A stretch of DNA of 64,000 nucleotides from Rhodobacterales bacterium LSUCC0031 (GTDB lineage: Bacteria > Pseudomonadota > Alphaproteobacteria > Rhodobacterales > Rhodobacteraceae), in assembly GCA_015689735.1 (NCBI GenBank), contig WVSP01000001.1, positions 608,001-672,000 of the forward strand. The letters run 5' to 3'. This document shows, one piece after another, positions 1,991 through 64,000 of this stretch. Within the stretch, counting starts at the first letter, position 1. Every line of letters starts with the position of its first letter. The notes beneath the pieces are model-generated. The model worked only from the letters and a program-made list of their open reading frames with translations. It did not search any database and was not told the DNA's origin. A program made the position numbers and the translations under genes.

Positions 1991-2043
1991 CCGGGGGTTT
2001 TCCACCCCCGGACCCCCGGAGGATATTTTTGAAACAGAGAAGG
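1991..2043 (+). repeat. GC-rich dispersed element, copy 1
   Basis: Hairpin CCGGGGG (1991-1997) / CCCCCGG (2005-2011), then CCCCCGGAGGATATTTTTG and AAACAGAGAAGG. The order (G-run/C-run hairpin, second C-rich block, a GATATTT core, then AAACnnAGAAG) recurs at 37891, 48405, 55152, 57192 and 62849. It occupies nearly all of the gap between the GntR gene and lpd. Confidence 0.7.
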
Positions 2044-17878: not shown

Positions 17879-17909
17879 TGTGATCACATGGTTGAAAACT
17901 GTGATCACA
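17879..17909. promoter_or_regulatory. paired TGTGATCACA operators upstream of sdhC
   Basis: Exact palindromes at 17879-17888 and 17900-17909, with starts 21 bp apart, the same geometry as upstream of sucC. A third, imperfect copy (TGTGATCGCT, 17856-17865) overlaps the mch stop. The pair lies about 140 bp upstream of sdhC, far enough for an activator or an upstream promoter. The rest of the 186-bp gap shows no clear -35/-10 pair. Confidence 0.75.
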
Positions 17910-37856: not shown

Positions 37857-37890
37857 GGCGCGCAGCTTGCCAAAGGGCGTGCGGGGTTTG

Positions 37891-37947
37891 GGGGGCTCTG
37901 CCCCCGGCCGTTCCGGCCTCCCCCGGGATATTTATGAAACGAAGAAG
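37891..37947 (+). repeat. GC-rich dispersed element, copy 2
   Basis: Hairpin GGGGGC-TCT-GCCCCC (37891-37905), then GGCC-GTTCC-GGCC, then CCCCCGGGATATTTATG and AAACGAAGAAG. It has the full order of the element. The 210-bp gap between the ThiF-like gene and the dimethylglycine dehydrogenase holds nothing else but a likely promoter. Confidence 0.75.
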
Positions 37948-44367: not shown

Positions 44368-44508
44368 CTGTCGCATCCCCTTACTGGCATTCCGGCGTTG
44401 GCTCTGACACTCTCGCATCCGAACCGGCGACGCAAGCCGTGCGGCGCGCGCTGGAAAGACCCATCCCGCTTCAATAGGCAAGCGGGACCAAGGACAGAGA
44501 CGAGCAGA

Positions 44509-45159: not shown

Positions 45160-45197
45160 CGACTTTCCATGACCCGCGCATCGATAAGCACCCGATC

Positions 45198-46334
45198 ATG
45201 ACAACTTCCGCACTCCGGCTGCGCGCAGCGATGTTGGCCACGCGGCTATCCTTTTTGGCGGCGGGGTTCGTGATGGCCTGTTGGGCGCCCTTGATCCCCT
45301 TTGCCAAGGCACAGGTGGGGGCGGATGAAGGCATTTTTGGCCTTTTGCTGCTTTGCCTTGGGCTTGGTGCGATCGTGGCCATGCCACTCACGGGCTATCT
45401 GAGCGCGCGCACGGGGGCGCGGCCGATGGTCTTGCTTGGCGGCTTCGGCCTTGTTGCAATCTTGCCCCTGCTGGTGCTGGCCCCTTCGGTCTGGGCGCTG
45501 GGCCTGGCCTTGGCACTGTTTGGCGCGGCGCTCGGCACCATCGATGTGGCGATGAACATTCACGCCGCCGAGGTCGAAACCCGCGCTGCGCGGCCCATGA
45601 TGTCGGGCTTTCACGCGATGTGGAGCGTGGGCGGCATCTTGGGTGCGGGTGGCCTGACGGCGCTCTTGTCTGTCGGCCTGTCACCGTTTGGTGCAGCCCT
45701 GTTGGGGAGCGGTCTGGCCGGCAGTGCCATGATCTTGGCAGCGCCGCGCCTTTTACGGCAATCGGCCGGCGCAAAGCCTGAATTCGTCCGTCCCCGCGGT
45801 TTGGTGCTTTTATTGGCGATCCTTGCCGCGATCTCGTTTCTGGTCGAAGGCGCCGTGCTGGATTGGGGTGCGCTCTTGATCGTGGCCCAAGGGCTGATGG
45901 AACCGACAGGTGCGGGGATCGGCTATATGCTGTTCTCGCTTGCCATGACCATCGCACGTCTGACAGGTGACCGCGTTGTCGCGGCTTTGGGGCGCAAACG
46001 GGTCATGATCCTTGGCGGTCTGATCGCCATGGCCGGTATCGCACTGACCCTTTTGCCGGGCATGCTGTGGTCGGCACTTTTGGGGTTTGCTCTGATCGGT
46101 CTGGGCTGTGCCAATCTGGTGCCGGTCATCTTCAGCCTTGCCGCGGCAAGCCGCGACATGCCATCCGGCATGGCGGTCGCGGCGGTGACGACGACCGGCT
46201 ATGCAGGGATCTTGCTTGGCCCAGCCCTGATCGGCTTTGCCGCCGATGCGACAAGCCTCGCCATTGCATTTGGGGCTTTGGCGCTGTGCATGGCGGCCTT
46301 CCCTTTAGCCGCCGCGCGCGCCAGCCGACCTTAG
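45198..46334 (+). CDS. MFS transporter
   Basis: 378 residues, 12 hydrophobic segments. N-terminal ATRLSFLAAGFVMACWAPLIPFAKAQ, the loop LSARTGARPM between helices 2 and 3, and DRVVAALGRKRVM in the second half. Resembles YbjJ-type carriers of unknown substrate. The start MTTSALRL is used; a TTG at 45156 would overlap the SH3 gene by 4 nt. Its stop overlaps the convergent M3 peptidase stop. Confidence 0.85.
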   Translation: MTTSALRLRAAMLATRLSFLAAGFVMACWAPLIPFAKAQVGADEGIFGLLLLCLGLGAIVAMPLTGYLSARTGARPMVLLGGFGLVAILPLLVLAPSVWALGLALALFGAALGTIDVAMNIHAAEVETRAARPMMSGFHAMWSVGGILGAGGLTALLSVGLSPFGAALLGSGLAGSAMILAAPRLLRQSAGAKPEFVRPRGLVLLLAILAAISFLVEGAVLDWGALLIVAQGLMEPTGAGIGYMLFSLAMTIARLTGDRVVAALGRKRVMILGGLIAMAGIALTLLPGMLWSALLGFALIGLGCANLVPVIFSLAAASRDMPSGMAVAAVTTTGYAGILLGPALIGFAADATSLAIAFGALALCMAAFPLAAARASRP

Positions 46335-48349: not shown

Positions 48350-48404
48350 CGATGCCATCTCCTTTTGCCCGCAAGATAGGGCATGGCGTGCCAAGCTGCA
48401 CCCT

Positions 48405-48460
48405 ATCTTTGCTTGAAAAATACTCCGGGGGAGCCCGGCACGGGCGGGGGCAGAGCCCCC
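48405..48460 (-). repeat. GC-rich dispersed element, copy 3
   Basis: On the minus strand: GGGGGC-TCT-GCCCCC (48460-48446), a GCCCGTGCCGGGC hairpin, then CTCCCCCGGAGTATTTTTC and AAGCAAAGATAGG. It lies between the BMP-protein terminator and the M3 peptidase start and abuts the 22-bp CGTACG palindrome, sharing its last C. Confidence 0.75.
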
Positions 48461-48481
48461 GAATTTTCGTACGAAAATTCG
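48460..48481. repeat. 22-bp palindrome with CGTACG centre
   Basis: CGAATTTTCGT/ACGAAAATTCG, identical to 21735-21756 although 27 kb away. It sits between a terminator and dispersed-element copy 3. Confidence 0.85.
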
Positions 48482-48500
48482 CATCCCCCCGCCACGAAAC

Positions 48501-48526
48501 GAAAAGGCCCGCCACGCGGGCGGGCC
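48501..48526 (-). terminator. factor-independent terminator of the xdh-ABC operon
   Basis: On the minus strand, GGCCCGCC, a CGCGT loop and GGCGGGCC (48526-48506) are followed by TTTTC (48505-48501). It lies 22 nt past the BMP-protein stop and is the best terminator in the window. Confidence 0.8.
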
Positions 48527-48547
48527 AATCCGTGACGGCGTCTTGGC

Positions 48548-49624
48548 TTAGTTCGGAATGTCGCCGGTGATGCCTTCGACGTAGAAGTTCATCCCCAACA
48601 GCGTGCCGTCATCGGCCACTTCGCCTGCGGCCAGCCAAGGCGAGCCGTCTTGCTTGTTGATCGGGCCGGTGAAGGGGTGATAGGTGCCTGCCTTAAGGGC
48701 ATCGATCATCTCTTGCGCGCTGGCGCGGACTTCGGCGGGAATCGCCTCGGTCAACTCACCGATCACGACCATACCTTCGGGCATCCCCTCCCAGATGTCC
48801 GACTGGGTCCACGTCCCGTTCATCGCTTCACCCACACGGCGGATGTAGTAAGGCGCCCAGTTGTCGATGATCGAGGCCACGCGCGGGCGCGGCGCAAACT
48901 GGATCATGTCCGATGCCTGACCGAAGGAGATGATCCCCGCTTCCTGCGCCACGGTCTGGGGCGCGGTCGAGTCGGTGTGCTGCATGATCACATCGGCACC
49001 GGCATCGATAAGCGCTTGGGCTGCGTCAGCTTCGATCGCGGGATCGAACCATGTATAGGCCCAAACCACGCGGAATTCGACATCGGGATTGACCGCGCGT
49101 GCATGCAGGAAGGCCGAATTGATACCTTGGATCACTTCGGGGATTGGATAGGATCCGATGTAACCGATGATGTTGCTTTCCGTCATCTGGCCCGCGATAT
49201 GACCAAGCACGGCGCGGCCTTCGTAGAAGCGCGCATTATAGGTCGAGACGTTGGCATGCTCGCGCATATAGCCCGTGGCATGCTCGAAATAGACATCGGG
49301 GAAGCGCGCTGCCACGGCATTGGTCGCCTCGCCATAGCCGAAAGAGGTTGTGAAGATCATGTCCGCACCGCCCAAGATCATTTGGGTGATCGACCGCTCG
49401 GCATCGGCACCTTCCGGCACGCTTTCAAGGTAAACAGTTTCGACGGCGTCGCCATAGGTGGCCTCGACCGCCAAACGTGCCTGATCATGTTCATAAGTCC
49501 ACCCATAGTCACCGGGTGTGCCGACATAGATAAACCCGACCTTGAAGGGGTCTTGCGCAAACGCGGGCATCGCAAGGCCCACGGCAAGCGCCGCAGAGGT
49601 CAGAAATTTTGGCAGCAGTTTCAT
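48548..49624 (-). CDS. BMP family ABC transporter substrate-binding protein
   Basis: 358 residues. Signal peptide (1-23, ending MPAFA), then FKVGFIYVGTPGDYGWTYEHDQARLAVE and GADMIFTTSFGYGEATNAVAARFPDVYFEHATGY, the BMP/PnrA periplasmic-binding pattern. These bind purine nucleosides or related bases; the adjoining xdhABC genes point to xanthine or hypoxanthine. The ribosome site GGAGGATAA is strong. It is the last gene of the operon; a 95-bp gap (the only long gap inside it) may carry its own control. Confidence 0.9.
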   Translation of the reverse strand: MKLLPKFLTSAALAVGLAMPAFAQDPFKVGFIYVGTPGDYGWTYEHDQARLAVEATYGDAVETVYLESVPEGADAERSITQMILGGADMIFTTSFGYGEATNAVAARFPDVYFEHATGYMREHANVSTYNARFYEGRAVLGHIAGQMTESNIIGYIGSYPIPEVIQGINSAFLHARAVNPDVEFRVVWAYTWFDPAIEADAAQALIDAGADVIMQHTDSTAPQTVAQEAGIISFGQASDMIQFAPRPRVASIIDNWAPYYIRRVGEAMNGTWTQSDIWEGMPEGMVVIGELTEAIPAEVRASAQEMIDALKAGTYHPFTGPINKQDGSPWLAAGEVADDGTLLGMNFYVEGITGDIPN

Positions 49625-49719
49625 TCAGTTATCCTCCAGTTTGGATAGGGTGAAGATGATGCGCGCTGGCGCGTGCGGGGGTGATTAGGGTCAGGCGTCT
49701 TTGGCATGTCGCGTCGCCC

Positions 49720-50643
49720 TCAGCCAGATGTGTGAAAGATACGGCCCAGCATCGCGGGTGCGTTGAGCGCCGCGCGGCTACGGTCCGACGAGATGATGAC
49801 AAGCACGATGATCGTGATGAGGTAGGGTGAGGCATCGAGGAGGGCCACGGGAACCCCGACTTCGGCGGCCTGTAGGCGCAGCTGCAACGCCGCGATACCG
49901 CCAAAAAGCCATGCGCCCAAAAGTACGCGCCACGGCTTCCATGCTGCAAAGACGACCAGTGCCAGCGCGATCCAGCCTGCGCCTGCGGTCATGCCCTCAA
50001 GCCAGTTTTGCACGCGCACCACAGACAAAAACGCCCCGCCCAACCCCGCGCAGGCCCCGCCGAACAGGATCGCGGCGATGCGGATGCGCACCACCTTGTA
50101 GCCAAGCGCATGGGCGGCATCGTGATTTTCGCCCACCGCCCGCAGCACCAGCCCGATGCGCGTGCGCGTGAGCACAAGCCAGACGGCGACCACAAGCAAA
50201 AGCGCAACATAGACGAGCGCGGAATGTGAAAACACGATCGGCCCAATGACAGCGATATCATGCCAGACTTCGGGAAAGGGGCGATACACCGCCGGAAGGT
50301 CACGCCCGCCATAGCCTACCCCGATCAATGCCGCGAGCCCAAGGCCAAAGAGCGTCAGCGCCAAGCCCGAGGCGACCTGATTGGCCATCAGAAGTTGTGT
50401 CAGAACGGCAAAGAGCATCGCCAGTGCTGCGCCACCTGCCATACCAGCGGCGAAGCCCACAGCCGCCGATCCGCTGTGATGGGCGACGACAAAGCCACAG
50501 ACCGCGCCCATGATCATCATTCCCTCGACCCCGAGGTTCAGAACACCGGCCTTTTCCACGACCAACTCGCCGATGGCGGCCAAAAGCACGGGCGTGGCAA
50601 CGGTGATCAAGGCCACCATCAGTGTGACGGGATCAACGATCAT
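49720..50643 (-). CDS. ABC transporter permease (BPD_transp_2), second subunit
   Basis: 307 residues with 8-9 helices. MVALITVATPVLLAAIGELVVEKAGVLNLGVEGMMIMGAVCGFV is the family N-terminus, and LGYKVVRIRIAAILFGGACAGLGGAFLS carries the EAA-like coupling region. Pairs with the upstream permease; their genes overlap by ATGA. Belongs to a nucleoside/purine importer with the BMP protein. Confidence 0.9.
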   Translation of the reverse strand: MIVDPVTLMVALITVATPVLLAAIGELVVEKAGVLNLGVEGMMIMGAVCGFVVAHHSGSAAVGFAAGMAGGAALAMLFAVLTQLLMANQVASGLALTLFGLGLAALIGVGYGGRDLPAVYRPFPEVWHDIAVIGPIVFSHSALVYVALLLVVAVWLVLTRTRIGLVLRAVGENHDAAHALGYKVVRIRIAAILFGGACAGLGGAFLSVVRVQNWLEGMTAGAGWIALALVVFAAWKPWRVLLGAWLFGGIAALQLRLQAAEVGVPVALLDASPYLITIIVLVIISSDRSRAALNAPAMLGRIFHTSG

Positions 50644-51725
50644 GCCGCGACCCTCCGTTTCAGTTTGACCCGGTAATTGGCCAGCACATCAAGCGCCAAG
50701 AGAAAGAACAACAGCATGCCTTGAAAGGCTTGGATCGCGGGGGCGGGGATACCGAGCATCAGCTGCGCCAGCTCACCACCGATAAAGGTCAGCGCCAAGA
50801 GAAGCCCGGCCAGCAAGATGCCGATCGGGTTCAACCGGCCAAGGAAGGCAACGATGATCGCGGTAAAGCCATAGCCGACGTTGAAATCGATCGAGATGCG
50901 GCCCGCGGGGCCCGCGACCTCGAACAGCCCCGCCATGCCCGCGAGCGCGCCCGAGACACCCATGCACAAGATCACCAGCCGCCCGGCATTGACCCCCCCA
51001 AAGCGCGCCGCGCGCGGGGCTTGGCCCGCAAGCCGGATCTGGTAACCCAGCACATGGCGCGTCATGATCACATAGGCCATGATCACGGCGACGAAGGCCG
51101 CCAAAACACCCCAATGCATCCCCGTTCCCGCGATCAATTCGGGATTGTCCGTGCCTGCGTGGCGCGCAAGGTTGCGCGAGCCGGGAAAGCCTGCACCTTC
51201 GGGGTTGCGCAACCATCCGGTCGCGGCCGAAGCCAGCATCGCCTCGGCGACATAGACCAGCAAAAGCGACACGAGGATTTCATTGGTGCGCGCATAAACC
51301 CGCAGCAAGGCCGGGATCATCGCCCAGAGCACGCCACCCAAAAGGCCGGCAAGTACCATGCCGGGAAAGATCAGCGGATGGGTCGAGGGCCAAAACGCAA
51401 GGCCAAAAGCCGCGCCACAAAGCGCGCCGACGATATATTGCCCTTCGGCCCCGATGTTCCAGATCCCTGCGCGGAACCCAAGGCTGAGGCCGATGGCGAT
51501 CAAGATCAGCGGCCCCGCCTTGACCAAGAGTTGCGGCCGCGAATAGCCCGAGAACTGTTCGGAAAAGAGTGGATCCCAAAAGATGATGCGGATCGCGCCG
51601 ACCGGATCTTTGCCCAAAGCCGCGAACATGATCCCGCCTGCGATCATTGTGAGCACCACCGCCAAAAGCGGCGCGCCGATCACCCAGCCACGGGCGGGCT
51701 GCGGGCGTTTTTCCAGCGCGATCAT
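50640..51725 (-). CDS. ABC transporter permease (BPD_transp_2), first subunit
   Basis: 361 residues with about 10 helices. IALEKRPQPARGWVIGAPLLAV at the N-terminus, GFRAGIWNIGAEGQYIVGA (the conserved NIGAEGQ of this permease family) and GAIRIIFWDPLFSEQ. Overlaps the ATPase gene by ATGA. Confidence 0.9.
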   Translation of the reverse strand: MIALEKRPQPARGWVIGAPLLAVVLTMIAGGIMFAALGKDPVGAIRIIFWDPLFSEQFSGYSRPQLLVKAGPLILIAIGLSLGFRAGIWNIGAEGQYIVGALCGAAFGLAFWPSTHPLIFPGMVLAGLLGGVLWAMIPALLRVYARTNEILVSLLLVYVAEAMLASAATGWLRNPEGAGFPGSRNLARHAGTDNPELIAGTGMHWGVLAAFVAVIMAYVIMTRHVLGYQIRLAGQAPRAARFGGVNAGRLVILCMGVSGALAGMAGLFEVAGPAGRISIDFNVGYGFTAIIVAFLGRLNPIGILLAGLLLALTFIGGELAQLMLGIPAPAIQAFQGMLLFFLLALDVLANYRVKLKRRVAA

Positions 51726-53236
51726 GCCACCACCTCGGCCATGTCATGCGCCCCGCCTAGCATCAGGCCGATCTCTTCCATGCTGAGCGCGCGTGCATCG
51801 CGGGCAGACGACATCCGCCCCTCGTTCAACGCACAAAAACGATCGGCAATCTCCAGCAACTCATCAAGGTCTTGGCTGATCACGATCACCGCAGCGCCGC
51901 CTTGGGCCAGATCCAAAAGCGCCTGCCGGATCGCGGCGGCGGCCGAGGCATCGACGCCCCAAGTGGGCTGGTTGACCACCAAGACGCTGGGCGCTTGCAG
52001 GATTTCGCGTCCGATCACGAATTTCTGCAAATTGCCGCCCGACAAGGCGCGTGCCACGACCTCCGTTCCGGGGGTGCGCACATCGAAGCGGGTGATGATC
52101 TCTTGCGCGAATTCGCGCGTGCGCGCCCAATCGACAAAGCCCCCCTGATCCAGTCCGCGCCGGATGCGCGCGGTCAGCAGCGCATTCTCGGTCAAGCTCA
52201 TATCCGGGGCAGCGGCATGGCCCAGCCGCTCTTCGGGTGCGCAGAGCACACCTTTTTCACGGCGCGCGTGCGGCCCTAAAGCGCCAATCGGCGCGCCAGC
52301 GAGTGTGATCGTGTCTGGGGCTGTGGTGATCTCGCCCGAAAGGACACTTAACAGCTCATCTTGCCCGTTGCCTGCGACACCGCCAATGCCAAGGATCTCG
52401 CCTGCGCGGACCGAAAAGCGCACATCGCGCAAGCTTGTTCCAAAGCTTGACGTTGCGGGCAGGTTCAGCCCATTGATCGCAAGCAAGACCGCGCCGGGTG
52501 CTTGTGCCGCGCGGGCCGGCTGCGCTAGCGATTTGCCGACCATCAACTCGGCCATATGGGCCGCCGTGACCGCGGCGGGTGTACATTCCCCGACCTTGCG
52601 CCCCAGTCGCAAGATTGTGGCCGCATCGCACAGCGTGCGAATTTCCTCGAGCTTGTGACTGATATACAAGATCGCCGTCCCCTCGGCCGCGAGCTTGCGC
52701 AACGTGTGAAACAGGATCTCGACCTCTTGCGGGGTCAAGACGCTGGTCGGCTCGTCCATGATCAAGAGCTTGGGATCTTGCAACAGGCAACGGATGATCT
52801 CGACCCGCTGACGTTCACCTGCCGACAGATCGCCGACCAGCCGAAACGGATCAAGTGGCAGGCCATAGGCCTGCGAGACCGCGCTGATCCTGGCCGCCAG
52901 ATCGCGGGGCTTTGGTGGGTCTTCCATGCCAAGCGCGATATTTTCGGCCACGCTCAGCGCTTCGAACAGGCTGAAATGCTGGAACACCATGGCGACACCG
53001 GCGGCCCGTGCTGCGCGCGGCTCGGCGGGAGCATAGGGCGCACCCCTCAGGCGCATGGTGCCATGGTCGGGTTTGACCAAGCCATAGATCATCTTGACCA
53101 GCGTCGATTTGCCCGCGCCATTTTCGCCCAAAAGCGCATGCACCTCGCCCGGTTGGATCGCAAAAGACACGTCATCATTGGCAACAACGCCCGGATAGGC
53201 TTTGCAAAGCCCCGAAATCTCCAAGAGCGCGGTCAC
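51722..53236 (-). CDS. ABC transporter ATP-binding protein (duplicated, sugar/purine type)
   Basis: 504 residues, two ABC domains. First: Walker A GENGAGKS (37-44), signature LSAGERQRVEI, Walker B LLIMDEPT. Second: Walker A is degenerate (GVAGNGQDE), signature LSGGNLQKFVI, and the Walker B DEPT is NQPT, so only the first site is expected to hydrolyse ATP, as in RbsA-type proteins. The start is GTG 53236, overlapping the xdhC stop (GTGA); the frame further up to 53497 is xdhC antisense or frame noise. Confidence 0.93.
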   Translation of the reverse strand: MTALLEISGLCKAYPGVVANDDVSFAIQPGEVHALLGENGAGKSTLVKMIYGLVKPDHGTMRLRGAPYAPAEPRAARAAGVAMVFQHFSLFEALSVAENIALGMEDPPKPRDLAARISAVSQAYGLPLDPFRLVGDLSAGERQRVEIIRCLLQDPKLLIMDEPTSVLTPQEVEILFHTLRKLAAEGTAILYISHKLEEIRTLCDAATILRLGRKVGECTPAAVTAAHMAELMVGKSLAQPARAAQAPGAVLLAINGLNLPATSSFGTSLRDVRFSVRAGEILGIGGVAGNGQDELLSVLSGEITTAPDTITLAGAPIGALGPHARREKGVLCAPEERLGHAAAPDMSLTENALLTARIRRGLDQGGFVDWARTREFAQEIITRFDVRTPGTEVVARALSGGNLQKFVIGREILQAPSVLVVNQPTWGVDASAAAAIRQALLDLAQGGAAVIVISQDLDELLEIADRFCALNEGRMSSARDARALSMEEIGLMLGGAHDMAEVVA

Positions 53237-54006
53237 GTCTGGTTCACTTTCCCCCGGTGGATCGGCTTGTCTGCCGATTCCTTGTGCAGATGCTCTTTCA
53301 GTAGCCGCCGAGCGACCCCCACGGCAATGGCTTGTGGGCTTCGGCCCAGTTCCGGCTCGCCAATTGGACAAAGAATGCGCGAAATTTCGGCATCTCGATG
53401 TCCCAATGCCTTGAGACGCGCCTGAAACCGCGCCCACTTCGTTTCTGATCCGATCAAGCCACAACTCGCAAAGCCATGGCCCAGCGCGGCGTGACACAAG
53501 CCAAGATCGATCTCGTGGCTGTAGCTGAGGATCAGGTGATGCGCCAAAGGCGGTGCATGGGCCATGAGGCGGGCCATGTCGGTGGCGACCACGATATCCA
53601 CGCCCTCCGGGGGCTTTTCCGGAAAGCGCGCCGCGCTGTCATCGACCCATGTGATCGCGACCTCAGGCAAAGGGGCCATGACCGCAGCCACCGCGCGTCC
53701 GACATGGCCAGCACCCCAAATCCATAGGGGCGCGCCCGCATGTTGCACAAGGCTTTCGGCCTGCTCGAACTGCAAGACCACCGCTCCGCCACAGCATTGG
53801 CCCAAGGCGGGGCCAAGCGGCAGGCGATGCTCGGCCTGATCCCGTCCCTCGGCCAGCATGGCGCGGGCGATGCGCATCGCCTCCCATTCCAGCGCGCCGC
53901 CGCCAATGGTGCCGGTTATATCCTCGGATGTCACCAGCATGGCCGCCCCCACCTCGCGCGGGGCCGAGCCTTGAACGGCGGTGATGGTGACGCGGATCGC
54001 GCTCAT
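53233..54006 (-). CDS. xdhC: xanthine dehydrogenase accessory protein
   Basis: 257 residues. SAPREVGAAMLVTSEDITGTIGGGALEWEA and LGQCCGGAVVLQFE (the GxCCGG of XdhC), then WIWGAGHVGRAVAAVM (Rossmann) and IGSETKWARFQ. XdhC binds and sulfurates the molybdenum cofactor and hands it to XdhB. Its N-terminus is short because the start (54006) is fixed by an ATGA overlap with xdhB. Confidence 0.93.
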   Translation of the reverse strand: MSAIRVTITAVQGSAPREVGAAMLVTSEDITGTIGGGALEWEAMRIARAMLAEGRDQAEHRLPLGPALGQCCGGAVVLQFEQAESLVQHAGAPLWIWGAGHVGRAVAAVMAPLPEVAITWVDDSAARFPEKPPEGVDIVVATDMARLMAHAPPLAHHLILSYSHEIDLGLCHAALGHGFASCGLIGSETKWARFQARLKALGHRDAEISRILCPIGEPELGRSPQAIAVGVARRLLKEHLHKESADKPIHRGKVNQT

Positions 54007-56345
54007 GCGCTCCGCGCCCGGTCGATCGCGGCCAATACCGCCTCTGCCGTGGCGGGGCCTTGCAGATCGGGATAATGCGGCCCGCAGGCGCTACAGGCCT
54101 CCGACAAGGCCATCAAGACGCTGATCCCGAGCATAAAGGGCGGCTCACCCACCGCTTTGGAGCGATAGATCGTCCGGGCCGGGTTCGGCTGATCCCAGAG
54201 CGCCACGTTGAAGATGGGCGGGCGGTCCGAACAGGCGGGGATCTTGTAGGTCGAGGGTGCGTGAGTTTTGAGCCGCCCGCGATCGTCCCAGACCAACTCC
54301 TCGGTGGTCAGCCAGCCCGCACCTTGTACGAAGCCGCCCTCGATCTGCCCGATATCAAGGGCGGGGTTCAGGCTCGCGCCTGCATCATGCAAGATATCTG
54401 CGCGCAGGATGCGGTTCTCGCCGGTAAGCGTGTCGATCACCACCTCGGTGCAGGCCGCGCTATAGGCGAAGTAGAAGAAGGGCTGCCCTTTGCCCGCGAT
54501 GCGGTCCCAGGCGATGTCGGGGGTCTTGTAGAACCCGGTGGCCGACAGGCTGACGCGCGCGGCATAGGCTGATTGCACGGCTTGGGCAAAACTGAGCCTT
54601 TGATCATGGCCGATATCGACACAGCCATCCCGGAAATTGATGTCGTCCTTGCCGTACACCTCCGCCAGATGCGCCGCGATCCGATCGCGGATCGTGTCGC
54701 AAGCGGCCTGCACGGCCATGCCGTTCAGATCGGTGCCGGAACTGGCCGCCGTGGCAGAAGAATTCGGCACCTTGCCGGTATCGGTCGCGGTAATCTTGAT
54801 CTTCTCCATCCCGACGCCAAAGCGGCTGGCGGCAACCTGCGCCACTTTCTGGAACAGGCCTTGGCCCATCTCGGTGCCACCATGATTGATCTGGATCGAT
54901 CCATCTTGATAGACATGGACCAGCGCGCCCGCCTGGTTGAGATGGGTCAGCGTGAAGGAAATCCCGAATTTCACCGGCGTCAGCGCGATGCCGCGCTTAA
55001 GCACCGGGTTCGCGGCGTTCCAGCGCGCGATCGCCACGCGCCGCCCGGCATAATCGCAAGACTGCGCCAAGCGTTCGGTCAGGCCATGCAAGATGAAATC
55101 GCGCACCTCCATGCCATAAGGCGTTGTCCCGGTCCGGGGGGCTTCATGCACCATCTTTGCTTCAGAAATACTCCCGCCGGAGGCCCCGGACGGTGCCGTT
55201 TGCGCTTCGGGATAGTAATTGAGGCGCCGAATATCCAAAGGATCGCGGCCCAGATGATGGGCGATATGGTCCATCACCCGCTCGATGCCGACCATGCCTT
55301 GCGGCCCGCCGAAGCCGCGAAAGGCCGTGGCGCTCTGGTGATTGGTCCGCAAGCGGTGCGAGGTGATGCGCGCCGCCGGCAACTCATAGGCATTGTCGGC
55401 ATGCAGCATGGCGCGGTCGGCCACGGGCAGCGACAGATCCATCGACCAGCCGCAACGCAGCACATGGGTGAAATCGACACCGAGAATGCGGCCATCGGCG
55501 TCAAAGCCCGCGCGGTAGTCGATGCGGATGTCATGCCGCTTGCCGGTGATCATGAAATCATCGTCGCGGTCATAGCGCATCTTGGCGGGCCGCCCGGTGC
55601 GGGCTGCGACGAGCGCACAGGCGATGGCCAGCGCATTGCCCTGGCTTTCCTTGCCGCCGAACCCGCCGCCCATGCGTCGCACCTCGACGCGGACGCCATG
55701 CATGGGCAAGCCCAGCGCATCGGCGACCTTGTGCTGGATCTCGGTCGGATGCTGGGTCGAGGCATGGATGACCATGTCGCCGTTTTCCTGCGGCAGCGCG
55801 AGGGCGGCCTGGCCTTCGAGGTAGAAATGCTCCTGCCCGCCGATCGCGATCCGGCCTTCCACGATATGGGGCGCTTGGGCGAGTGCGGCCTCGACATCGC
55901 CCTTGGCATAGATGCGCGGGCCATCCTCGAAGCGGGCATTGGCGGCGAGCGCGTCTTCGATGCTCAGGATCGGGGTTTCTTCGGCCAGATCGAGCTTGGC
56001 CAAAAGGGCGGCACGGCGCGCAGCCAGATGGGTGTCGGCGATCACCAGGAAGAGCGGCTGGCCCGCGTAATGGATCGTTCCATCAGACAGCAGCGGCTCG
56101 TCATGGGCCGCCGGCGCGCAATCGGGGATCGGGTCGAGATCGGCGCCCGCGATCACATCCACCACGCCCGGTGCCGACCGGACGGCAGACAGGTCCATCG
56201 CCCGGATGCGCCCCTTTGCGATGGGCGAGAGGCCAAAGGCAAGATGCAGGCAATCGGTCGGGGTAGGGATGTCGTCGATATAGCGCGCGCGTCCAGTCAC
56301 ATGCAGGTGGGCCGCATCATGCGGCAGGCTCTCATGCGCGCTCAT
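54003..56345 (-). CDS. xdhB: xanthine dehydrogenase, molybdenum-binding subunit
   Basis: 780 residues. [13 protein letters not shown] at the N-terminus, [14 protein letters not shown] (226-235), [18 protein letters not shown] (333-350), and the C-terminal [15 protein letters not shown] whose Glu is the catalytic base. Binds xanthine/hypoxanthine at the molybdopterin. An insertion at about residues 382-406 ([10 protein letters not shown], then [15 protein letters not shown]) has no counterpart in the flanking domain and is encoded partly by the dispersed element (copy 4). ATGA overlaps on both sides. Confidence 0.95.
55152..55187 (-). repeat. dispersed element copy 4 inside xdhB
   Basis: On the minus strand GGGGCCTCCGGCGGGAGTAT, then TTCTGAAGCAAAGATGG: the tail of the element (compare copy 3 TATTTTTCAAGCAAAGATAGG), read in frame as [12 protein letters not shown], XdhB residues 387-398. 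The leading hairpin is missing or decayed. Confidence 0.65.
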
Positions 56346-57787
56346 GGCTGCACCTCCAGCAGACCGACAGGCTGCCCCCGGCTTTCATGGAAGTAACGCA
56401 TCAGCATGGCCTTGGCCGCGCGCAGCCTGTAGCGTGCCGAGGCGCGCATGTCCGACAGCGGTGTGAAATCCGCCGCGAAGGCGTCTTGAGCGGCAAGCAC
56501 TTTCGCCTCGGTCCAATCCTGCCCGATCAGTGCGGCCTCGACCGCGTGGGCGCGCTTGGGCGTGCCTGCCATGCCGCCAAATGCAATGCGCACGGCAGTA
56601 ACTTTCTCGTCCTCGACCGTGATGCTGAAGGCCCCGCAAACCGCCGAGATGTCCTGATCGAAGCGCTTGGAGAGTTTGTAACAGGCCAGCCGGTCAGGCT
56701 GGACGGGGATGCTGACGGCTGCGACGAATTCGCCCTCTGCGCGGTCCTGCTTGCCGTAGTCGAGAAAGAAATCCTCAAGCGCGATCACCCGGCGCGTATC
56801 GCCGCGGCGCAGATGCAGGCTCGCCCCGAGCGCGATCAGCGCGGGCGGGCTGTCGCCGATGGGCGAGCCATTGGCGATGTTGCCCCCAATGGTTGCAGCG
56901 TTGCGCACTTGGGCCGAACCGTAGCGGCGGATGAGTTCAGCGAAAGCGGGATGCCTGTCGGCGATGAAGGTGCCAAGTTCGGCGATGGTGGTCATGGCGC
57001 CGATGTGGATTGTTTCGTCATCCGCAACAATGCCGCGCAGATCGGCGCATTGGTTCAGGAACGCGATAGGGGCAGGGTCGCGCAATCCTTTGGTGACCCA
57101 AAGCCCCACATCGGTTGCGCCCGCGATCAGCGTGGCCTTGGGGTTCTCGAGATACCATGCAGCAAGATCATCGGCGGAGGTCGGGCAGGTGGGGGGCTGT
57201 CTGCCCCCGTCGCCATTGTCACTCGGACCAATGGCGCTCCGTTGGCGACCCCCCGATGATATTTGTGAAACAGAGAATGAGGCGGACCTCAGCGTTTCGG
57301 CATCGGCGCGCATCCAGCCCGGCACGGGTGCTGTTTCCACCGCCTTGGCCGCGCGGATGATCGGGGCGTAGCCTGTGCAACGGCACAGATTGCCTGCCAA
57401 TTGGTCGTCATGGTCGGTGCGGCCATTGCGATGCGCTACTGCCATCGAGACCACGAAGCCCGGCGTGCAAAAGCCACATTGCGATCCATGATGGTCGATC
57501 ATCGCCTGTTGTACCGGGTGAAGCGCGCCATCGGGGCTTGCGATCCCCTCGACCGTTCGGACCGCGCGCCCGGCCAGTTGCGGCAAAAACAAGATGCAGG
57601 CATTCAACGCCCGCGCGCTGCCATCAGGGTCGGTCACCATCACGGTGCAGGCACCGCAATCACCCTCGTTGCAACCTTCCTTGGTGCCGGTGAGCCGCCG
57701 TTCCTCGCGGAGCCAATCCAAGAGCGTCGCAGTGGGGGGCGCATCGACTTGCACAGGTTCCCCGTTGAGAAGAAACCGGATTGTCAT
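56342..57787 (-). CDS. xdhA: xanthine dehydrogenase, iron-sulfur and FAD subunit
   Basis: 481 residues. [2Fe-2S] domain [11 protein letters not shown] (39-49) plus a later Cys64; second cluster CGFCTPG (104-110) with LCRCTGY (134-140); FAD domain starting about 205, with LIAGATDVG and [24 protein letters not shown]. Electrons pass from XdhB through both clusters to FAD and NAD. The linker between the halves (about 167-205) is encoded by a full copy of the dispersed element. The start [10 protein letters not shown] is at 57787; a longer frame running to 60829 is antisense to dnaE. Confidence 0.95.
57192..57280 (+). repeat. dispersed element copy 5 inside xdhA
   Basis: Plus strand (opposite to xdhA): GGGGGC-TGTCT-GCCCCC (57192-57208), an internal inverted repeat GTCGCCA...TGGCGAC, then CCCCCCGATGATATTTGTG and AAACAGAGAATGA. 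This is the full element order. It stays open in the xdhA frame for about 30 codons and codes for the FeS/FAD linker. Confidence 0.75.
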
Positions 57788-58015
57788 GACTTTAGCCTGC
57801 CGCGTTACCCGATACCGGGGAGGTCGTCCGGCGCTCGATGCGGCGTAGAGCGCGGCCCCGTCTTGTTTGACCGACACCCACAAAAGCGGGGTTAGTCCGA
57901 TATTGCAAGCTTTGGGTTGCAACATACCCGATCTTGCGCAGGCGGCGCGCCATTTCTGTGCATAATCGTCGTGTTGCGGTTCCATCCTGCACCGCGCTGC
58001 GATAGCCTTGCGCGC
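57788..58015. promoter_or_regulatory. divergent control region between xdhA and dnaE
   Basis: A 228-bp gap with head-to-head genes, so it must hold promoters for the xdh-ABC operon and dnaE. It is less GC-rich than its surroundings around 57895-57975. No clear -35/-10 pair, palindrome or operator was recognised, and no gene. Confidence 0.5.
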
Positions 58016-61000
58016 ATGTCTGACCCGAAATTCATCCATCTGCGTCTGCACACCGAATATTCGCTGCTTGAAGGCGCGATGCGGGTCAAGAAATTGCCCG
58101 GATTGGTGGCCGAGGCGGGGATGCCCGCCGTCGCCGTGACCGACACCAACAACATGTTTTGCGCCCTGGAGTTTTCGGAGACAGCCGCAAAGGCCGGGGT
58201 GCAGCCTATCCTTGGTTGTCAGATCGATGTTGAATACGACCCAGTCCGCCCCGGTGAGCGGCCCGTGCCGCCCGCGGCGCTGGTGCTCTTGGCGCAGGAT
58301 CGTGTGGGTTACGAGAACCTGATGAAGCTCAATTCCGCGCTTTATCTGCGCGGGGACGGCAGCTTGCCCCATGTCACGCTCGACGAGTTGGCCGCGCATG
58401 GCGCCGGGCTGATCTGCCTGACAGGTGGGCCTGACGGTGCGCTTGGGCGGCTCTTGCAGACGGGCAATTCGGTCAAGGCCGAGGCGCTGTTGACCCGGCT
58501 GGAGGGGATCTATTCCGACCGTCTTTATGTTGAATTGCAACGCCATCCCGGCGAAGGCGGTGCGACGCCAGCCGAGCAGTTGACCGAGCGTCCAAGTATC
58601 GAATTGGCCTATGCTCGCGATCTGCCGCTGGTGGCGACAAATGATGTCTATTTCCCCAAGGCCAATATGTTCGAGGCCCATGACGCGATGATTTGTATCG
58701 CCCAAGGTGCCTATGTCGATCAATCCGAACCGCGCCGCCGCCTGACGCCGCAGCATTATTTCAAATCCCCCGAAGAGATGACGGCGCTCTTCGCCGATCT
58801 GCCCGAGGCGCTGGAAAACACGGTCGAGATCGCGCGCCGCTGCGCCTATCGCGCGCGCACCCACCCCCCGATCCTGCCGCGCTTTGCCGAGGACGAAGTC
58901 GAAGAATTGCGCCGTCAGGCCCGCGAAGGTCTTGCCGCGCGTCTTGCCGTCATCCCCCATGCCGCCCCGGTCGCGGAGTACGAGAAACGCCTCGATTTCG
59001 AGTTGGGCATTATCGAACGGATGGGCTTCCCCGGCTATTTCCTGATCGTGGCCGATTTCATCAAATGGGCCAAGGACCAAGATATCCCCGTCGGCCCCGG
59101 TCGAGGTTCGGGGGCGGGCAGCCTTGTCGCCTATGCGCTCACGATCACCGACCTTGATCCGTTGCGCTACTCGCTGCTGTTCGAGCGGTTCCTGAACCCC
59201 GAACGCGTCTCGATGCCCGACTTCGATATCGACTTCTGCATGGACCGCCGCGAAGAGGTGATCCGCTACGTTCAGGAGAAATATGGCCGCGATCGTGTGG
59301 GCCAGATCATCACCTTCGGCGCGCTTCTCTCCAAGGCGGCGGTGCGCGACGTGGGCCGCGTGCTTCAGATGCCCTTTGGTCAGGTCGACCGGCTTTCCAA
59401 GATGATCCCGGTCGAGGGCGTAAAGCCTGTTTCCATCACGCAGGCCGTCGCGCAGGAGGAACGTATCCGCGAGGAAATGCGCGAGACCGAGCAAGATCGC
59501 CGCGAGGGGCGCACCAACCCGGTCAAGCGCCTGTTCGACTATGCCGAAAAGATCGAGGGGCTGCTGCGCAATGCCTCGACCCATGCGGCGGGCGTGGTGA
59601 TCGGGGACCGCCCGCTCGACGCGCTGGTGCCGATCTACCGCGATCCGCGTTCCGACATGCCCGCCACCCAGTTCAACATGAAGTGGGTGGAACCCGCCGG
59701 TCTGGTGAAATTCGACTTCCTCGGCCTCAAGACGCTGACGGTAGTGCAAAACGCCATCGACCTGATCCATGCAAGCGGTCGCCAGTTGCACGAAGCCCCC
59801 GATGGCACGCGGCTTTACGACCCCGCGCCGGGGGCGGAAAACCAGATCAACGCCATCCCGCTGGATGACGCGAAAACCTACGCGCTTTACGCCAGCGCCA
59901 AGACGGTCGCGGTGTTCCAGGTGGAAAGTTCGGGCATGATGGATGCGCTGCGGCGCATGAAACCCACCTGCATCGAGGATATCGTGGCGCTCGTGGCGCT
60001 CTATCGCCCAGGGCCGATGGAGAACATCCCGACCTATTGCGAGGTCAAGAACGGGCTGCGGCCGCTCGAATCCATCCACCCCTCGATCGACCACATCTTG
60101 CAAGAGACCCAAGGCATCATCGTCTATCAAGAACAGGTGATGGAAATCGCCCAAGTCATGGCGGGCTATTCGCTCGGCGGCGCCGACCTTTTGCGCCGCG
60201 CGATGGGCAAAAAGATCGCCGAGGAAATGGCCAAGGAGCGCCCGAAGTTCATCGAAGGGGCGACCGCCAATGGCGTGTCCAAGGAAAAGGCGGGCGAGGT
60301 TTTCGACCTGCTCGAAAAATTCGCCAATTACGGCTTTAACAAGTCCCACGCCGCCGCCTATGCGGTCGTCAGCTACCAGACCGCGTGGCTGAAAGCGAAC
60401 CACCCGGTCGAATTCATGGCCGCCGTCATGAACTGTGACATCCACCTGACCGACAAGCTCGGCATCTACCGGCAGGAGGTCGCGCGGATGGGCATCGAGG
60501 TCATCCCGCCTTGCGTCAACCGCTCCGCCCCGACCTTTACCGTCGAGGAGGGCAAGATCCTCTATGCGCTCGGCGCGCTCAAGAATGTGGGCGTCGATGC
60601 GATGCGTCTGATCCATGAGGCGCGTCGCGCGGACCCGCGCGCCCCGGAAAAGGGCGACAAACCCTTCCGCTCGCTTTTCGATGTCGCGCGCCGCGTCGAT
60701 CTCAAGCGTGTAGGCAAGCGCCCGCTCGAGATGCTGGCGCGCGCCGGTGCCTTTGACGCGCTTGACCGCAACCGCGCGCGGGTCTTTGCGTGTCTCGATG
60801 CGCTGGTGGCTTATTCGGCGGCGATCCATGACGCGGCGGCCTCGAACCAGGTCAGCCTGTTCGGCGCGGCGGGCGAGGATCTGCCTGAACCCCGGTTGCC
60901 CAACCCCGAGGATTGGCTACCCGCTGCGCGGCTGAGTGCCGAACACGCGGCGGTGGGCTTTTACCTGTCGGGCCACCCGCTCGACGATTACCTGCCTGCG

Positions 61001-61561
61001 CTCAAGCGCAAGGGCGTGCTCACGCTCGAAGAGGTCGCCCAAAAGGTGCAGGGCGGCGCCTTTGTCGCGCGCATGGCTGGGGCCGTCTCCTCCCGCCAAG
61101 AGCGAAAATCGCAAAAGGGCAACCGATTTGCCTTTGTCGCGCTCTCCGATCCGACGGGGCTCTACGAGGTGACGATGTTCTCTGATGTGCTCGACGCGTC
61201 GCGCCCGCATCTCGAGACGGGGATGAACATCTTGTTGCAGGTCGAGGCGACCTTTGAGGCCGATCAACTCAAGCTGCTTTGCCGGGGCGTGCAGCCGCTT
61301 GATGCTGCGGTCGCAAGTGCCACAACCGGCCTGCGTGTCTTTGTCGATGGTGAGACGGGGATCGCTTCGGTGCAATCGCTGCTCGCACGCATGGCCAATG
61401 ATGCGGCGCGTGCCGTGCGCGGGCCAATCCATCTGTGCCTTTTGGCACCTGATTTGCCGGGTGAGGTCGAATTGGTTCTGGGCGATGATTTTCCCGTCTC
61501 GCCCCAGATCAAGGGCGCGCTCCGCGCCATGGACGGGATCGTGACCGTCGAAGAGGTTTGA
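58016..61561 (+). CDS. dnaE: DNA polymerase III alpha subunit
   Basis: 1181 residues. N-terminal PHP domain ([17 protein letters not shown]), palm region with [16 protein letters not shown] and the preceding [24 protein letters not shown], the [24 protein letters not shown] segment, and a C-terminal OB-fold ([19 protein letters not shown]). Main replicative polymerase. The start MSDPKFIHL at 58016 is chosen; ATG 57917 would add 33 non-conserved residues. Confidence 0.97.
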
Positions 61562-61600
61562 CCCCTTTCCAATCCCCAAAGGTCAGCCTAGCCTCGCGCC

Positions 61601-62830
61601 ATGCATGCAGATGGCCCCGCACTCATTTTCGATAGCCGCGCATCATGGACGCGCCTTGGCCTATCGCTTTTGATTTCGCTGATCGGCAATGTCGGCATGT
61701 GGTCGATCATCGTGATCATGCCCGCGATGCAGGCCGAATTCGGTGTTGACCGGGCAGATGCCGCCATCCCCTACACGTTGACGATGCTGGGTTTTGCGGC
61801 AGGCAATTTCCTGATCGGGCGCGCGGTCGATCGCTGGGGGGTGGCGCGGGCCTTGGCGGCCTCGGCCCTGCTGATGGCATTTGGCTTTGCCGCTGCCGCC
61901 ATGGCGCCTAACATCGCGACGCTCGCGGCGCTGCAACTCCTGATCGGCTTCGGCACGGCGACAAGCTTCGGACCGCTCATCGCCGATGTCAGCCAATGGT
62001 TTCTCAAGCGCCGCGGCATCGCGGTCGCGATGATCGCCTCGGGCAATTACCTTTCAGGTGCCATCTGGCCCTTGATCTTGGCCGATATCCTTGCCGGTCC
62101 CGGCTGGCGGACCGCCTATCTGGTGATTGCGGCCGCGGCCCTTTTCGTCATGCTGCCCGCCACATGGCTTCTGCGCCGCCCGCTGCCCGCCGGCGCGATG
62201 GAGGCGTCAGACACCGCCGCCGCGGCGCGCGCGCGCGACAGCGGGCTTGGGCCGCGTGCCTTGACGTGGCTTTTGGCGGCCGCAGGCATCGGCTGCTGCG
62301 TGGCAATGTCCATGCCGCAGGTCCATATCGTCGCCTATTGCGCCGATCTGGGCTATGGCCCCGCCGTGGGGGCGGAAATGCTCAGCCTGATGCTCTTGGG
62401 CGGGGTCGCCTCGCGGCTGGTCTCGGGGCTTTTGGCCGATCGGTTGGGCGGGGTCATGACGCTGCTTGTCGGCTCCACGCTGCAAATGCTGGCCTTGATG
62501 CTCTACCTGCCCACGACCGGCCTGACCCCGCTCTATCTCGTCAGCCTGATCTTCGGGCTGAGCCAAGGGGGCATCGTGCCTGCGTATGCGATCATCGTGC
62601 GCGAATACCTGCCCGCGCGCGTGGCAGGCGCAAAGGTGGGCTTCGTGATCATGGCCACGATCATCGGCATGGCGCTGGGCGGCTGGCTTTCGGGGCTGAT
62701 CTACGACCTCACCGGCGCCTATCATTGGGCCTTTATCAACGGCATTGCCTTCAACGCGCTCACTGTCGCGATCATGATCTTCATCATCGCCCGGTCACGC
62801 CCGCGCAGACCAGAGGCCCTGCCTGCCTGA
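61601..62830 (+). CDS. MFS transporter, OFA/monocarboxylate-like
   Basis: 409 residues, 12 helices. FLIGRAVDRWGVARALAASALL as the helix 2-3 loop, GFGTATSFGPLIADVSQWFLKRRGIAVAMIASGNYLSGAIWP, and LVSGLLADRLGGVMTLLVGS in the second half. The RRGIAVAMIASGNYLSG stretch is typical of oxalate/formate-antiporter-like and monocarboxylate carriers. Substrate unknown. It lies 39 nt after dnaE. Confidence 0.85.
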   Translation: MHADGPALIFDSRASWTRLGLSLLISLIGNVGMWSIIVIMPAMQAEFGVDRADAAIPYTLTMLGFAAGNFLIGRAVDRWGVARALAASALLMAFGFAAAAMAPNIATLAALQLLIGFGTATSFGPLIADVSQWFLKRRGIAVAMIASGNYLSGAIWPLILADILAGPGWRTAYLVIAAAALFVMLPATWLLRRPLPAGAMEASDTAAAARARDSGLGPRALTWLLAAAGIGCCVAMSMPQVHIVAYCADLGYGPAVGAEMLSLMLLGGVASRLVSGLLADRLGGVMTLLVGSTLQMLALMLYLPTTGLTPLYLVSLIFGLSQGGIVPAYAIIVREYLPARVAGAKVGFVIMATIIGMALGGWLSGLIYDLTGAYHWAFINGIAFNALTVAIMIFIIARSRPRRPEALPA

Positions 62831-62848
62831 CGAAAGACCCGCTGCCCC

Positions 62849-62915
62849 CTTCTTCGTTTCCCAAATATCCCGGGGGGGACGCGGCCCAAGGGGCCGTGTT
62901 GGGGGGCAGCGCCCC
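62849..62915 (-). repeat. GC-rich dispersed element, copy 6
   Basis: Minus strand: GGGGGCGCTGCCCCC, then a GGCCC-CTT-GGGCC hairpin, then CCCCCGGGATATTTGGG and AAACGAAGAAGG. It has the full element order, follows the MFS stop by 18 nt, and runs into the tandem array. Confidence 0.75.
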
Positions 62916-63007
62916 CCCCAAACGAAGGACTCTGGGGCAGCGCCCCCCACAAACGAAGGACTCTGGGGCAGCGCCCCCCCACAAACAAAGGGTTCTGGGG
63001 CAGCGCC
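62903..63007. repeat. 31-bp tandem repeat, three copies plus part
   Basis: Units GGGGCAGCGCCCCCC followed by ACAAACGAAGGACTCT at 62903-62933, 62934-62964 and 62965-62996 (32 bp, third with AAACAAAGGGTTCT), then a partial GGGGCAGCGCC. Each unit repeats the hairpin and part of the AAACGAAG tail of the adjoining element, as if that end had been duplicated in tandem. Confidence 0.85.
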
Positions 63008-63018
63008 GTCGCTGGGTG

Positions 63019-63222
63019 TCACCAATGCGGTGGCCGCTGATCTGCCAGGGGGATCGTGCCGCTTGCATCGACCTCGCGTTCCGCTTCACGCGCCATCAGC
63101 ATCTCGACCTGGCGTGTCAGCCGCGCGATCTCACCGTCTTGGCGGGCGACCACTTCCGACAGATCTTCCACCATCCGCTCCAGATGGGCAATGCGTTCTT
63201 CTTGCGCGGTTGTGTCGTTCAT
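63019..63222 (-). CDS. slyX: SlyX family protein
   Basis: 67 residues. A short coiled coil (EERIAHLERMVEDLSEVVARQDGEIARLTRQVEMLM) then a proline-rich end PLADQRPPHW, the SlyX pattern; function unknown. The start MNDTTAQ is used; a frame running to 63795 is antisense to hisS. Convergent with the MFS gene, with the element and tandem array between them. Confidence 0.88.
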   Translation of the reverse strand: MNDTTAQEERIAHLERMVEDLSEVVARQDGEIARLTRQVEMLMAREAEREVDASGTIPLADQRPPHW

Positions 63223-63359
63223 GATCCTTGCTCCTTGCCCCGCAGTGCGGTCAGCCAATTTTGCAGGCTTTGCTATCGTGCATCGCCCGCCTGTGCCTTG
63301 CCGATTGCGCCCCCCTCCGCTAGAGGGAGGCCGACCCCGAGCGCAGGGATATGCCACCC

Positions 63360-64000
63360 ATGGCCAAAGACCGCAAACAGCCCCGCCCCAAGGCAGAAAC
63401 GCCCAAAGGCTTCCGTGATTATTTCGGTGCCGAGGTGCTGGAACGTCAAGCAATGCTTGATGCGATCGCGCGCGTCTATCACGCCCATGGCTTCGATCCG
63501 TTGGAAACCTCGGCCGTCGAAACGGTCGAGGCGCTGGGCAAGTTCCTGCCCGATGTGGACCGGCCCAATGCCGGCGTCTTCGCCTGGCAGGAGGAGGAGG
63601 GCGAGGGCGGCAATTGGCTCGCCTTGCGCTACGACATGACCGCCCCCTTGGCGCGGGTCGCCGCCCAATACCGCAACGATCTGCCCAGCCCCTATCGCCG
63701 CTACGCGATGGGGCCTGTCTGGCGCAACGAGAAACCGGGGCCGGGGCGGTTCCGGCAATTCTACCAATGCGATGCCGATACGGTGGGTGCGGCAAGCGTC
63801 GCGGCCGATGCCGAGATCTGCGCGATGCTGGCCGATGCGCTCGAGGCGGTGGGGATCGAGCGGGGCGACTACATCGTGCGGATCAACAACCGCAAGGTGC
63901 TGAACGGCGTGCTCGAAGTCGCGGGCCTTTCGGGCGACGACAAGGAAGAGGCGCGCGGCATCGTGCTGCGCGCCATCGACAAGCTCGACCGTCTGGGCGA
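63360..64000 (+). CDS. hisS: histidyl-tRNA synthetase (partial, runs off the window)
   Basis: First 213 residues. [38 protein letters not shown] (class II motif 1 region), [14 protein letters not shown], and motif 2 [31 protein letters not shown], which is specific for HisRS. ATG 63351, three codons upstream and in frame, is possible; 63360 has AGGGAT at a better distance. The 3' part lies beyond 64000. Confidence 0.93.

Follow-up and report, generated by a model that had tools for sequence, protein, structure and literature searches.

In-frame copies of a Rhodobacteraceae hairpin repeat in xanthine dehydrogenase linkers: stable addresses and cores that may be rewritten in place

DNA uptake sequences (DUS) and uptake signal sequences (USS) are genome-specific dialects of a short motif that also occurs within coding DNA, and DUS are present in many hundreds of copies per genome. 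Rickettsia palindromic elements (RPE) are portrayed in the cited passages as short palindromic interspersed repeats that lie in frame in unrelated protein genes, where they supply an extra peptide (PMC10969869, PMC2267715), with a length of about 150 bp (PMC10969869). The extragenic palindromic repeats of the REP/REPIN type exist, according to the sections used here, in genome-specific versions with several subfamilies per genome (PMC3116915). A survey of 40 genomes lists, in the part drawn on here, stem-loop repeat families, one of which (Cod-2) resides in coding sequence in different frames, and uptake sequences that form terminator hairpins (PMC2267715). The repeat analysed here was encountered in a 64,000-nt stretch of the Rhodobacterales bacterium LSUCC0031 (family Rhodobacteraceae; contig WVSP01000001.1, positions 608,001 to 672,000), called the window below, where two of its copies lie within xdhA and xdhB, the genes of xanthine dehydrogenase (XDH).

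The initial annotation of the window, made from the sequence alone, had placed copies of a dispersed repeat in frame inside xdhA and xdhB and in opposite orientations, which was confirmed. The xdhB core (55151-55184) is sense and the xdhA element (57191-57277) antisense to its gene, and both frames are open across the copies, as judged from the open reading frames (ORFs) and their matches to XDH chains (Table 1). The xdhA element consists of a first hairpin, an inverted-repeat segment and the core; its 87 nt correspond to 29 codons, close to the 30 or so linker codons predicted, and its peptide context ends with ...G-G-R-Q-P-P. In xdhB, the core (GCC TCC GGC GGG AGT ATT TCT GAA GCA AAG ATG G) encodes 11 residues in the linker and forms part of the 25-residue stretch ahead of TTPYG, again as predicted. 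The presence of a hairpin repeat in frame in a linker also supports the proposal that it is tolerated as a protein spacer. In an AlphaFold2 model of XdhB (alignment of 28 sequences, XdhB and 27 relatives; mean pLDDT 74.8), residues 384-403 form a coil with pLDDT <50, flanked by helices 369-376 and 419-429; this is weak evidence for a disordered linker, as other stretches of the model also have pLDDT <50. In the XDH chains of R. capsulatus, the peptides GLSAPPSPPEPIATKKTQ (chain B comparison) and AQLSSGVRGQTAP (chain A comparison) look like remnants of the same insertions.

The genome that contains the window (G000; 2.98 Mb, 7 contigs, same genus as G011) holds many further copies. Model R1, built from 40 cores, gives at least 98 matches at E<=1, of which at least 87 are at E<=0.001, both counts being lower bounds, since scoring covered 150 of the 908 first-look candidates, and a weight-matrix scan of the fetched loci yields 91 distinct copies. 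R1 fits the G000 dialect and misses diverged ones, with only 8 matches in the congener G001 and 31 matches at E<=1 over 80 named loci. The usual copy starts with hairpin 1 (a G-run, C-NNN-G or a longer loop, and a C-run), often followed by a variable hairpin 2, then a C-run with GG or GAG and the core unit. In this unit, two purines precede TATTT, which is followed by 2-4 free bases and a ~12-nt tail rich in purines. Two subfamilies of the core unit exist, GA-TATTT-NN-GAAACRRAGAAG and AG-TATTT-NN-GAAGCAAAGATG, and in a second architecture, to which the xdhB copy belongs, GCCTCCGGCGGG is located immediately ahead of the unit. Hairpin 1 is present in 72 of 75 hairpin-type copies, and 22 of these 72 have a middle segment of <11 nt. 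Where this segment measures >=11 nt, 49 of 50 form a stem of >=4 bp (mean 5.6 versus 3.8 in shuffled segments), and since stems are kept with 30 different 5' arms, hairpin 2 covaries across copies. At L008, L009, L011 and L012, an additional partial hairpin unit, GGGGGCTGTCTGCCCC or a similar sequence, is found farther upstream of the core, as if elements were stacked. The 64-kb window has zero Rfam matches at gathering score, the sole threshold used, and a known RNA family was rejected for the repeat on this basis.

In many genera, the repeat occupies one and the same place in the XdhB linker, a segment of hypervariable length bounded by the NYY and TTPYG motifs. After removal of 4 duplicates from 130 loci of relatives, 120 xdhB and 122 xdhA linkers were parsed. 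Six xdhB linkers were left unparsed (L092, L096, L101, L132, L138 and L143; the core is nevertheless visible in L096, L132 and L138, and L101 stems from a different family of the same class), as were four xdhA linkers (L071, L083, L146 and L176). The unparsed xdhB of G009 (L092, G009:C18) has stop codons in the linker region, possibly reflecting a frameshift, in a genome given as 73% complete. The core rules for relatives are looser than R1, were written after their linkers had been viewed and give counts that vary with the rule: the strict one detects a core in 45 of 120 xdhB linkers (26 hairpin-type, 19 GCCTCCGGCGGG-type), while a rule requiring TATTT detects it in 42, of which 42 are sense and 0 antisense, all in one frame. 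In xdhA, the TATTT-requiring rule finds 31 of 122 linkers with a core, 31 antisense and 0 sense, distributed over three frames (18, 10 and 3), and another rule finds 26. Element-free xdhB linkers are short in some relatives (L099, L100, L084 and L079 with 7, 8, 9 and 9 codons) and long in others (76 codons in L153), and linker length alone is therefore no marker of the element. Residues similar to those of the two linkers, which in element-free relatives were to count against an insertion, do occur in many relatives, but together with the element.

The peptide motif of the element occurs at 58 places in XdhB, and its isoleucine position is encoded by ATT in 44 of them, by ATC in 1 and by codons for other residues in 13. 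Elsewhere in these ORF stretches ATT is a minority isoleucine codon (911 versus 3465 for ATC and ATA together; Fisher p=8e-29 on isoleucine codons). An exact search with the pattern CTCCGGCGGGNNTATTT matched 3 of 4 genomes of the family (16, 15, 1 and 0 copies). Among the 285 genomes searched from the rest of the class, 2 had a single match each, so that, as far as tested with this one pattern, the repeat appears confined to Rhodobacteraceae.

All ten relatives examined contain repeat matches. Its left half, GCCTCCGGCGGG-RR-TATTT, varies little among them, and the tail that follows the 2-4 free bases differs from genome to genome, often with several tails in one genome. The xdhB copy follows this dialect: in 9 of 11 genomes, its tail is most similar, without ties, to the dispersed tails of its own genome. 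The summed score of 139 compares with an expected 96.6 and was reached in 0 of 100,000 permutations; when six copies were drawn per genome the result held (115.7 versus 85.2, 10 genomes). Change in place towards a dialect of the genome was unforeseen by the initial annotation.

G000 was compared with the congeners G001, G007 and G008, and copy positions proved stable against G008. For 35 of the 91 copies both flanks could be mapped to two contigs of G008, at 75-91% identity, and 34 of these 35 occupy the same place; the remaining copy is a member of a head-to-head pair. Neither the 35 mapped copies nor the other congener alignments provide a clean case of an empty site or a target duplication, and the target-site duplication anticipated for an insertion was thus not seen in them. 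The 87-nt xdhA element is common to G000, G007 and G008, while the linker of G001 is 45 nt shorter and the element is missing or decayed. G001 seems to retain a decayed tail (TTTGTGAAACGATGA), and its sequence may thus reflect loss instead of an empty site. The expectation that the insertions would be present or absent as blocks holds for xdhA in these four genomes, but the coding copies are otherwise common to several genera. A recent block insertion with target duplication was rejected, as this present/absent behaviour is confined to the xdhA block in the congener alignments. In xdhB, the core of the four genomes is 94% identical, the rest of the linker 66%.

At these stable addresses, the core itself changes. 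In 11 of the 34 G000-G008 pairs, the subfamily is switched at both ends of a 21-nt unit, i.e., at about five positions together. The 68 cores in register keep matching ends, and one core with a lost base was read out of register. Hybrids are rare, with 1 among 182 distinct fetched cores (89 from G000, 69 from G008, 14 from G007 and 10 from G001). Upstream hairpins are as similar at swapped as at unswapped loci (identity 0.88 and 0.89), and so are the downstream 40 nt (0.77 and 0.78). The free dinucleotide is changed in 24 of the 34 pairs, which exceeds the drift expectation at a joint conservation of 0.6-0.7 (p=3e-4 to 1e-6), and the rest of the unit is identical at 419 of 437 positions in the 23 unswapped pairs. 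A swap is also found within a third protein linker. bchB of the window genome (L221:1316-2896, minus strand), encoding the protochlorophyllide reductase subunit B, contains a copy in frame in the C-terminal linker of its product. This copy is in frame in G000, G001 and G008. G001 and G008 have the same subfamily, which differs from that of G000, and hairpin 2 of the copy is altered in G001 and absent in G008. The best solved BchB match (8vqi) has a different linker in the alignment.

On balance, these data make it narrowly probable that the XDH copies are old linker insertions which are tolerated as spacers and are rewritten in place, and not the product of recent hops. The interspersed hairpin element would itself be old and the xdh copies members of it. 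Long ago, single copies would have lodged in flexible linkers, in sense orientation in XdhB and antisense in XdhA, with one in BchB in this genus, and ordinary selection on the protein would have maintained the frame. The copies would have stayed put between the congeners, while their cores would have been overwritten repeatedly from other copies within that genome, the likeliest process being very short-tract, hairpin-promoted conversion or template switching, and the coding copies would thereby follow the current dialect of the genome. The age of the insertions is suggested because orientation is fixed at each site, xdhB uses one frame and positions are almost totally conserved. Copying from elsewhere in the genome is preferred over stepwise selection because the swaps of 21 nt are coordinated, hybrids amount to 1 in 182 and the neighbouring hairpins show no extra change. 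This proposal would include a single ancestral insertion at each site, a conversion mechanism and the lack of a benefit to the enzyme.

Several points weigh against rewriting of old insertions. The ~21-nt swapped unit, together with the little tail sequence that the subfamilies share, is too little for ordinary RecA conversion, and no donor-recipient pair was traced for the core swaps. The single hybrid core (G001 L257) and a G008 core with a mixed tail end (L305) are what stepwise change predicts. The strict rule is failed by 75 of 120 xdhB linkers, some with decayed cores and others without any, and the three xdhA frames could reflect several insertions; independent insertions are unlikely as the main source in xdhB, given its fixed orientation and frame, and possible for xdhA. 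The element frequency is biased upward, as the 80 named loci represent the best of 570 matches and EAKMVHEA, one of six search peptides, falls within the linker. The dialect test covers GCCTCCGGCGGG-type dispersed copies, uses 9 of 35 rows for G024, 2 of 4 for G038, 13 of 15 for G000 and 26 of 27 for G015 (where the row left out is the xdhB copy), and contains two misfits, G010 (own rank 4) and G024 (own rank 9). Positional stability was scored on two contigs (396,265 and 319,046 bases) of one congener, G008, and genes were called with a simple home-made codon model.

The strongest rival to in-place rewriting is a co-evolving binding factor. The core would then be the recognition site of a genome-specific trans-acting factor, binding DNA or RNA, comparable to the dialects of DNA uptake sequences, and the copies in xdhA, xdhB and bchB would be kept because they are useful. 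This is unlikely, yet to be taken seriously, since it accounts for the near identity of the unswapped units (419 of 437, versus 0.78 in the downstream 40 nt), the retention of 34 of 35 copies in place, the greater conservation of the xdhB core (94%) than of the remaining linker (66%), the resemblance of the free bases to an unrecognised spacer and the existence of one hybrid core. A stepwise route is hard to reconcile with about five joint changes in 11 of 34 pairs and a hybrid frequency of 1 in 182. Several tail subfamilies within one genome, e.g., in G015 and G043, and the 75 of 120 xdhB linkers that fail the strict core rule likewise speak against it.

A more specific version of the rewriting proposal, which should be regarded as speculative and rather unlikely, invokes a dedicated process. 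Site-specific exchange or a hairpin-primed template switch would write a ~21-nt cassette into about 90 fixed addresses per genome, including those in xdhA, xdhB and bchB, so that protein linkers would be edited in concert with intergenic DNA from a lineage-specific cassette alphabet.

It is improbable that the repeat is a miniature mobile element that is still active, strongly prefers certain sites and orientations, and repeatedly inserts into the same linkers, where it replaces older copies. The three xdhA frames, the genome-specific tails and the long segment of the xdhA copy that is present at three G000 loci agree with such an element. The middle segment of the xdhA copy is found again at L018 and L237, and whole elements must therefore have spread at some time. 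The initial annotation, which described the repeat as an element that is or was mobile, was right about the past, to which the present or absent xdhA block also testifies, but the finding that 34 of 35 copies have kept their place in a congener with flanks of 75-91% identity speaks against current mobility. The congener alignments also show neither target duplications nor empty sites, and a search for Y1 (RAYT) transposases (PF01797), limited to the Y1 family, found 0 in G000 and hits in 2 of 30 genomes of the family.

Most copies are located near gene 3' ends. Intergenic positions account for 83 of the 91 copies, with 34 in convergent, 43 in co-directional (28 sense, 15 antisense; p=0.066) and 6 in divergent gaps. 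Element-free gaps of >=60 nt at the same loci, a small background taken from the element loci themselves, comprise 3 convergent, 30 co-directional and 16 divergent ones (chi-square versus element gaps p=2.5e-6). Among the eight non-intergenic copies, four lie inside ORFs (xdhB, xdhA, bchB and a methyltransferase-like ORF), two overlap gene ends (L007 and L224) and the remaining two (L041 and L047) have doubtful starts or a doubtful ORF. The copy in the methyltransferase-like ORF (L246, G000:C4:211937-211963) is in frame and uses another reading frame (SPGYLENEEA). At L007 (~1437, minus strand), a TetR-like ORF ends within the element, its stop codon being the TAA of TATTTAAG, and the same TATTTAAG is present at this place in G008.

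The 3'-end bias, and GC hairpins followed by TATTT with a covarying hairpin 2, would suit transcription terminators or mRNA 3'-end structures, in which case the coding copies would be by-products, serving as weak attenuators whenever translation fails. This reading is quite improbable. The T tract is short and is followed by free bases, the purine tail extends beyond any termination point, and 15 of the 43 copies in co-directional gaps run antisense to the genes on both sides. A scan for terminator-like sites at window positions 44001-64000 detects the copy at 48406 and, at the xdhA copy, a weak site, but yields 31 sites versus 17.1 in shuffles, mostly elsewhere, and leaves the 62848 and xdhB copies unflagged. 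Chance similarity of linkers that are low-complexity and GC-rich is rejected as having a negligible probability, given the window pattern matches to the repeat (3 and 4, versus zero in 100 shuffles), the 71 cores found with the same rule in the 80 named loci versus 9 in one mononucleotide shuffle, and the biases in frame, orientation and codons.

Table 1. Repeat copies and XDH genes in the 64,000-nt window.
Feature	Position	Strand	Basis
xdhB, molybdenum-binding large subunit of xanthine dehydrogenase	54003..56345	-	ORF; residues 1-778 match R. capsulatus XDH chain B 1jro_B
xdhA, iron-sulfur/FAD subunit of xanthine dehydrogenase	56342..57787	-	481-aa open frame; whole-length match to R. capsulatus XDH chain A 2w3r_A
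xdhB repeat core, sense, in frame	55151..55184	-	Model R1 match at G000:C1:663151-663184; codons read; same site occupied in relatives
xdhA copy, hairpin 1 (GGGGGGCTGTCTGCCCCC)	57191..57208	+	Sequence; hairpin 1 present in 72/75 copies of this architecture
xdhA copy, variable inverted-repeat segment	57209..57246	+	8-bp stem; similar segments at L018, L237
xdhA repeat core, antisense to gene, in frame	57247..57277	+	Model R1 match at G000:C1:665247-665277; alignment with three congeners
Intergenic copy, core	2011..2043	+	Pattern matches and model R1 search
Intergenic copy, hairpins and core	37888..37947	+	Repeat scan and model R1 search
Intergenic copy, second core subfamily (AGTATTT..AAGCAAAGATAG)	48406..48463	-	Repeat scan and model R1 search
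Intergenic copy (core), downstream of dnaE-like ORF	62848..62879	-	Model R1; core subfamily differs at same place in congeners G008, G001

Other repeats are present in the window. A 31-nt unit (GGGGCAGCGCCCCCC..AAACGAAGGACTCT) occurs three times in tandem at positions 62903-62995, next to the copy that lies downstream of dnaE, and this stretch is shorter in two congeners. The palindrome TGTGATCACA is paired about 21 nt apart both at 11002-11032 and at 17879-17909, looking like operator sites of one regulator. A 151-nt direct repeat (5041-5191 and 5344-5494) has 82% identity and a spacing of 303 nt.

These observations point to a repeat whose addresses persist and whose sequence is rewritten genome-wide, within enzyme genes as well as between genes, which makes the concerted evolution of short interspersed repeats directly testable, and it may explain odd, lineage-specific residues of the well-studied XDH enzyme. 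Among the matches listed in open-licence literature, none is a prior description of this repeat in Rhodobacteraceae; a search there with four 14-nt core versions gave a single paper, which concerns CRISPR in periodontal bacteria. The text of the 40-genome survey (PMC2267715) contains none of the words Rhodobacter, Silicibacter and Caulobacter.

By analogy, the repeat resembles DUS/USS in having a genome-specific dialect of a short motif and copies in coding DNA, and would differ from them by its ~90-100 copies per genome, its structured flanking hairpins and its free spacer bases. With REP/REPIN, as far as the sections used describe them, it shares genome-specific versions and subfamilies, but it consists of hairpins plus a one-sided purine tail instead of a symmetric REP pair; a REP/RAYT system was rejected since G000 lacks a Y1 transposase, the only transposase family searched. 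The likeness to RPE noted in the initial annotation stands in part. According to the cited descriptions of RPE, from which, and not from RPE sequences, the distinction is drawn, both are palindromic (hairpin 1 in 72/75 copies, hairpin 2 in 49/50 middle segments of >=11 nt) and lie in frame in coding sequence, here in xdhA, xdhB, bchB and a methyltransferase-like ORF, where the linkers tolerate them. In contrast to those descriptions, the Rhodobacteraceae repeat is mainly intergenic at gene ends (83/91), measures about 35-90 nt for core and hairpins, and is found across a family with genome-specific dialects, stable positions, in-place change and linker copies shared across genera. With it, a second bacterial group would join the RPE-type phenomenon of repeats that supply protein sequence.

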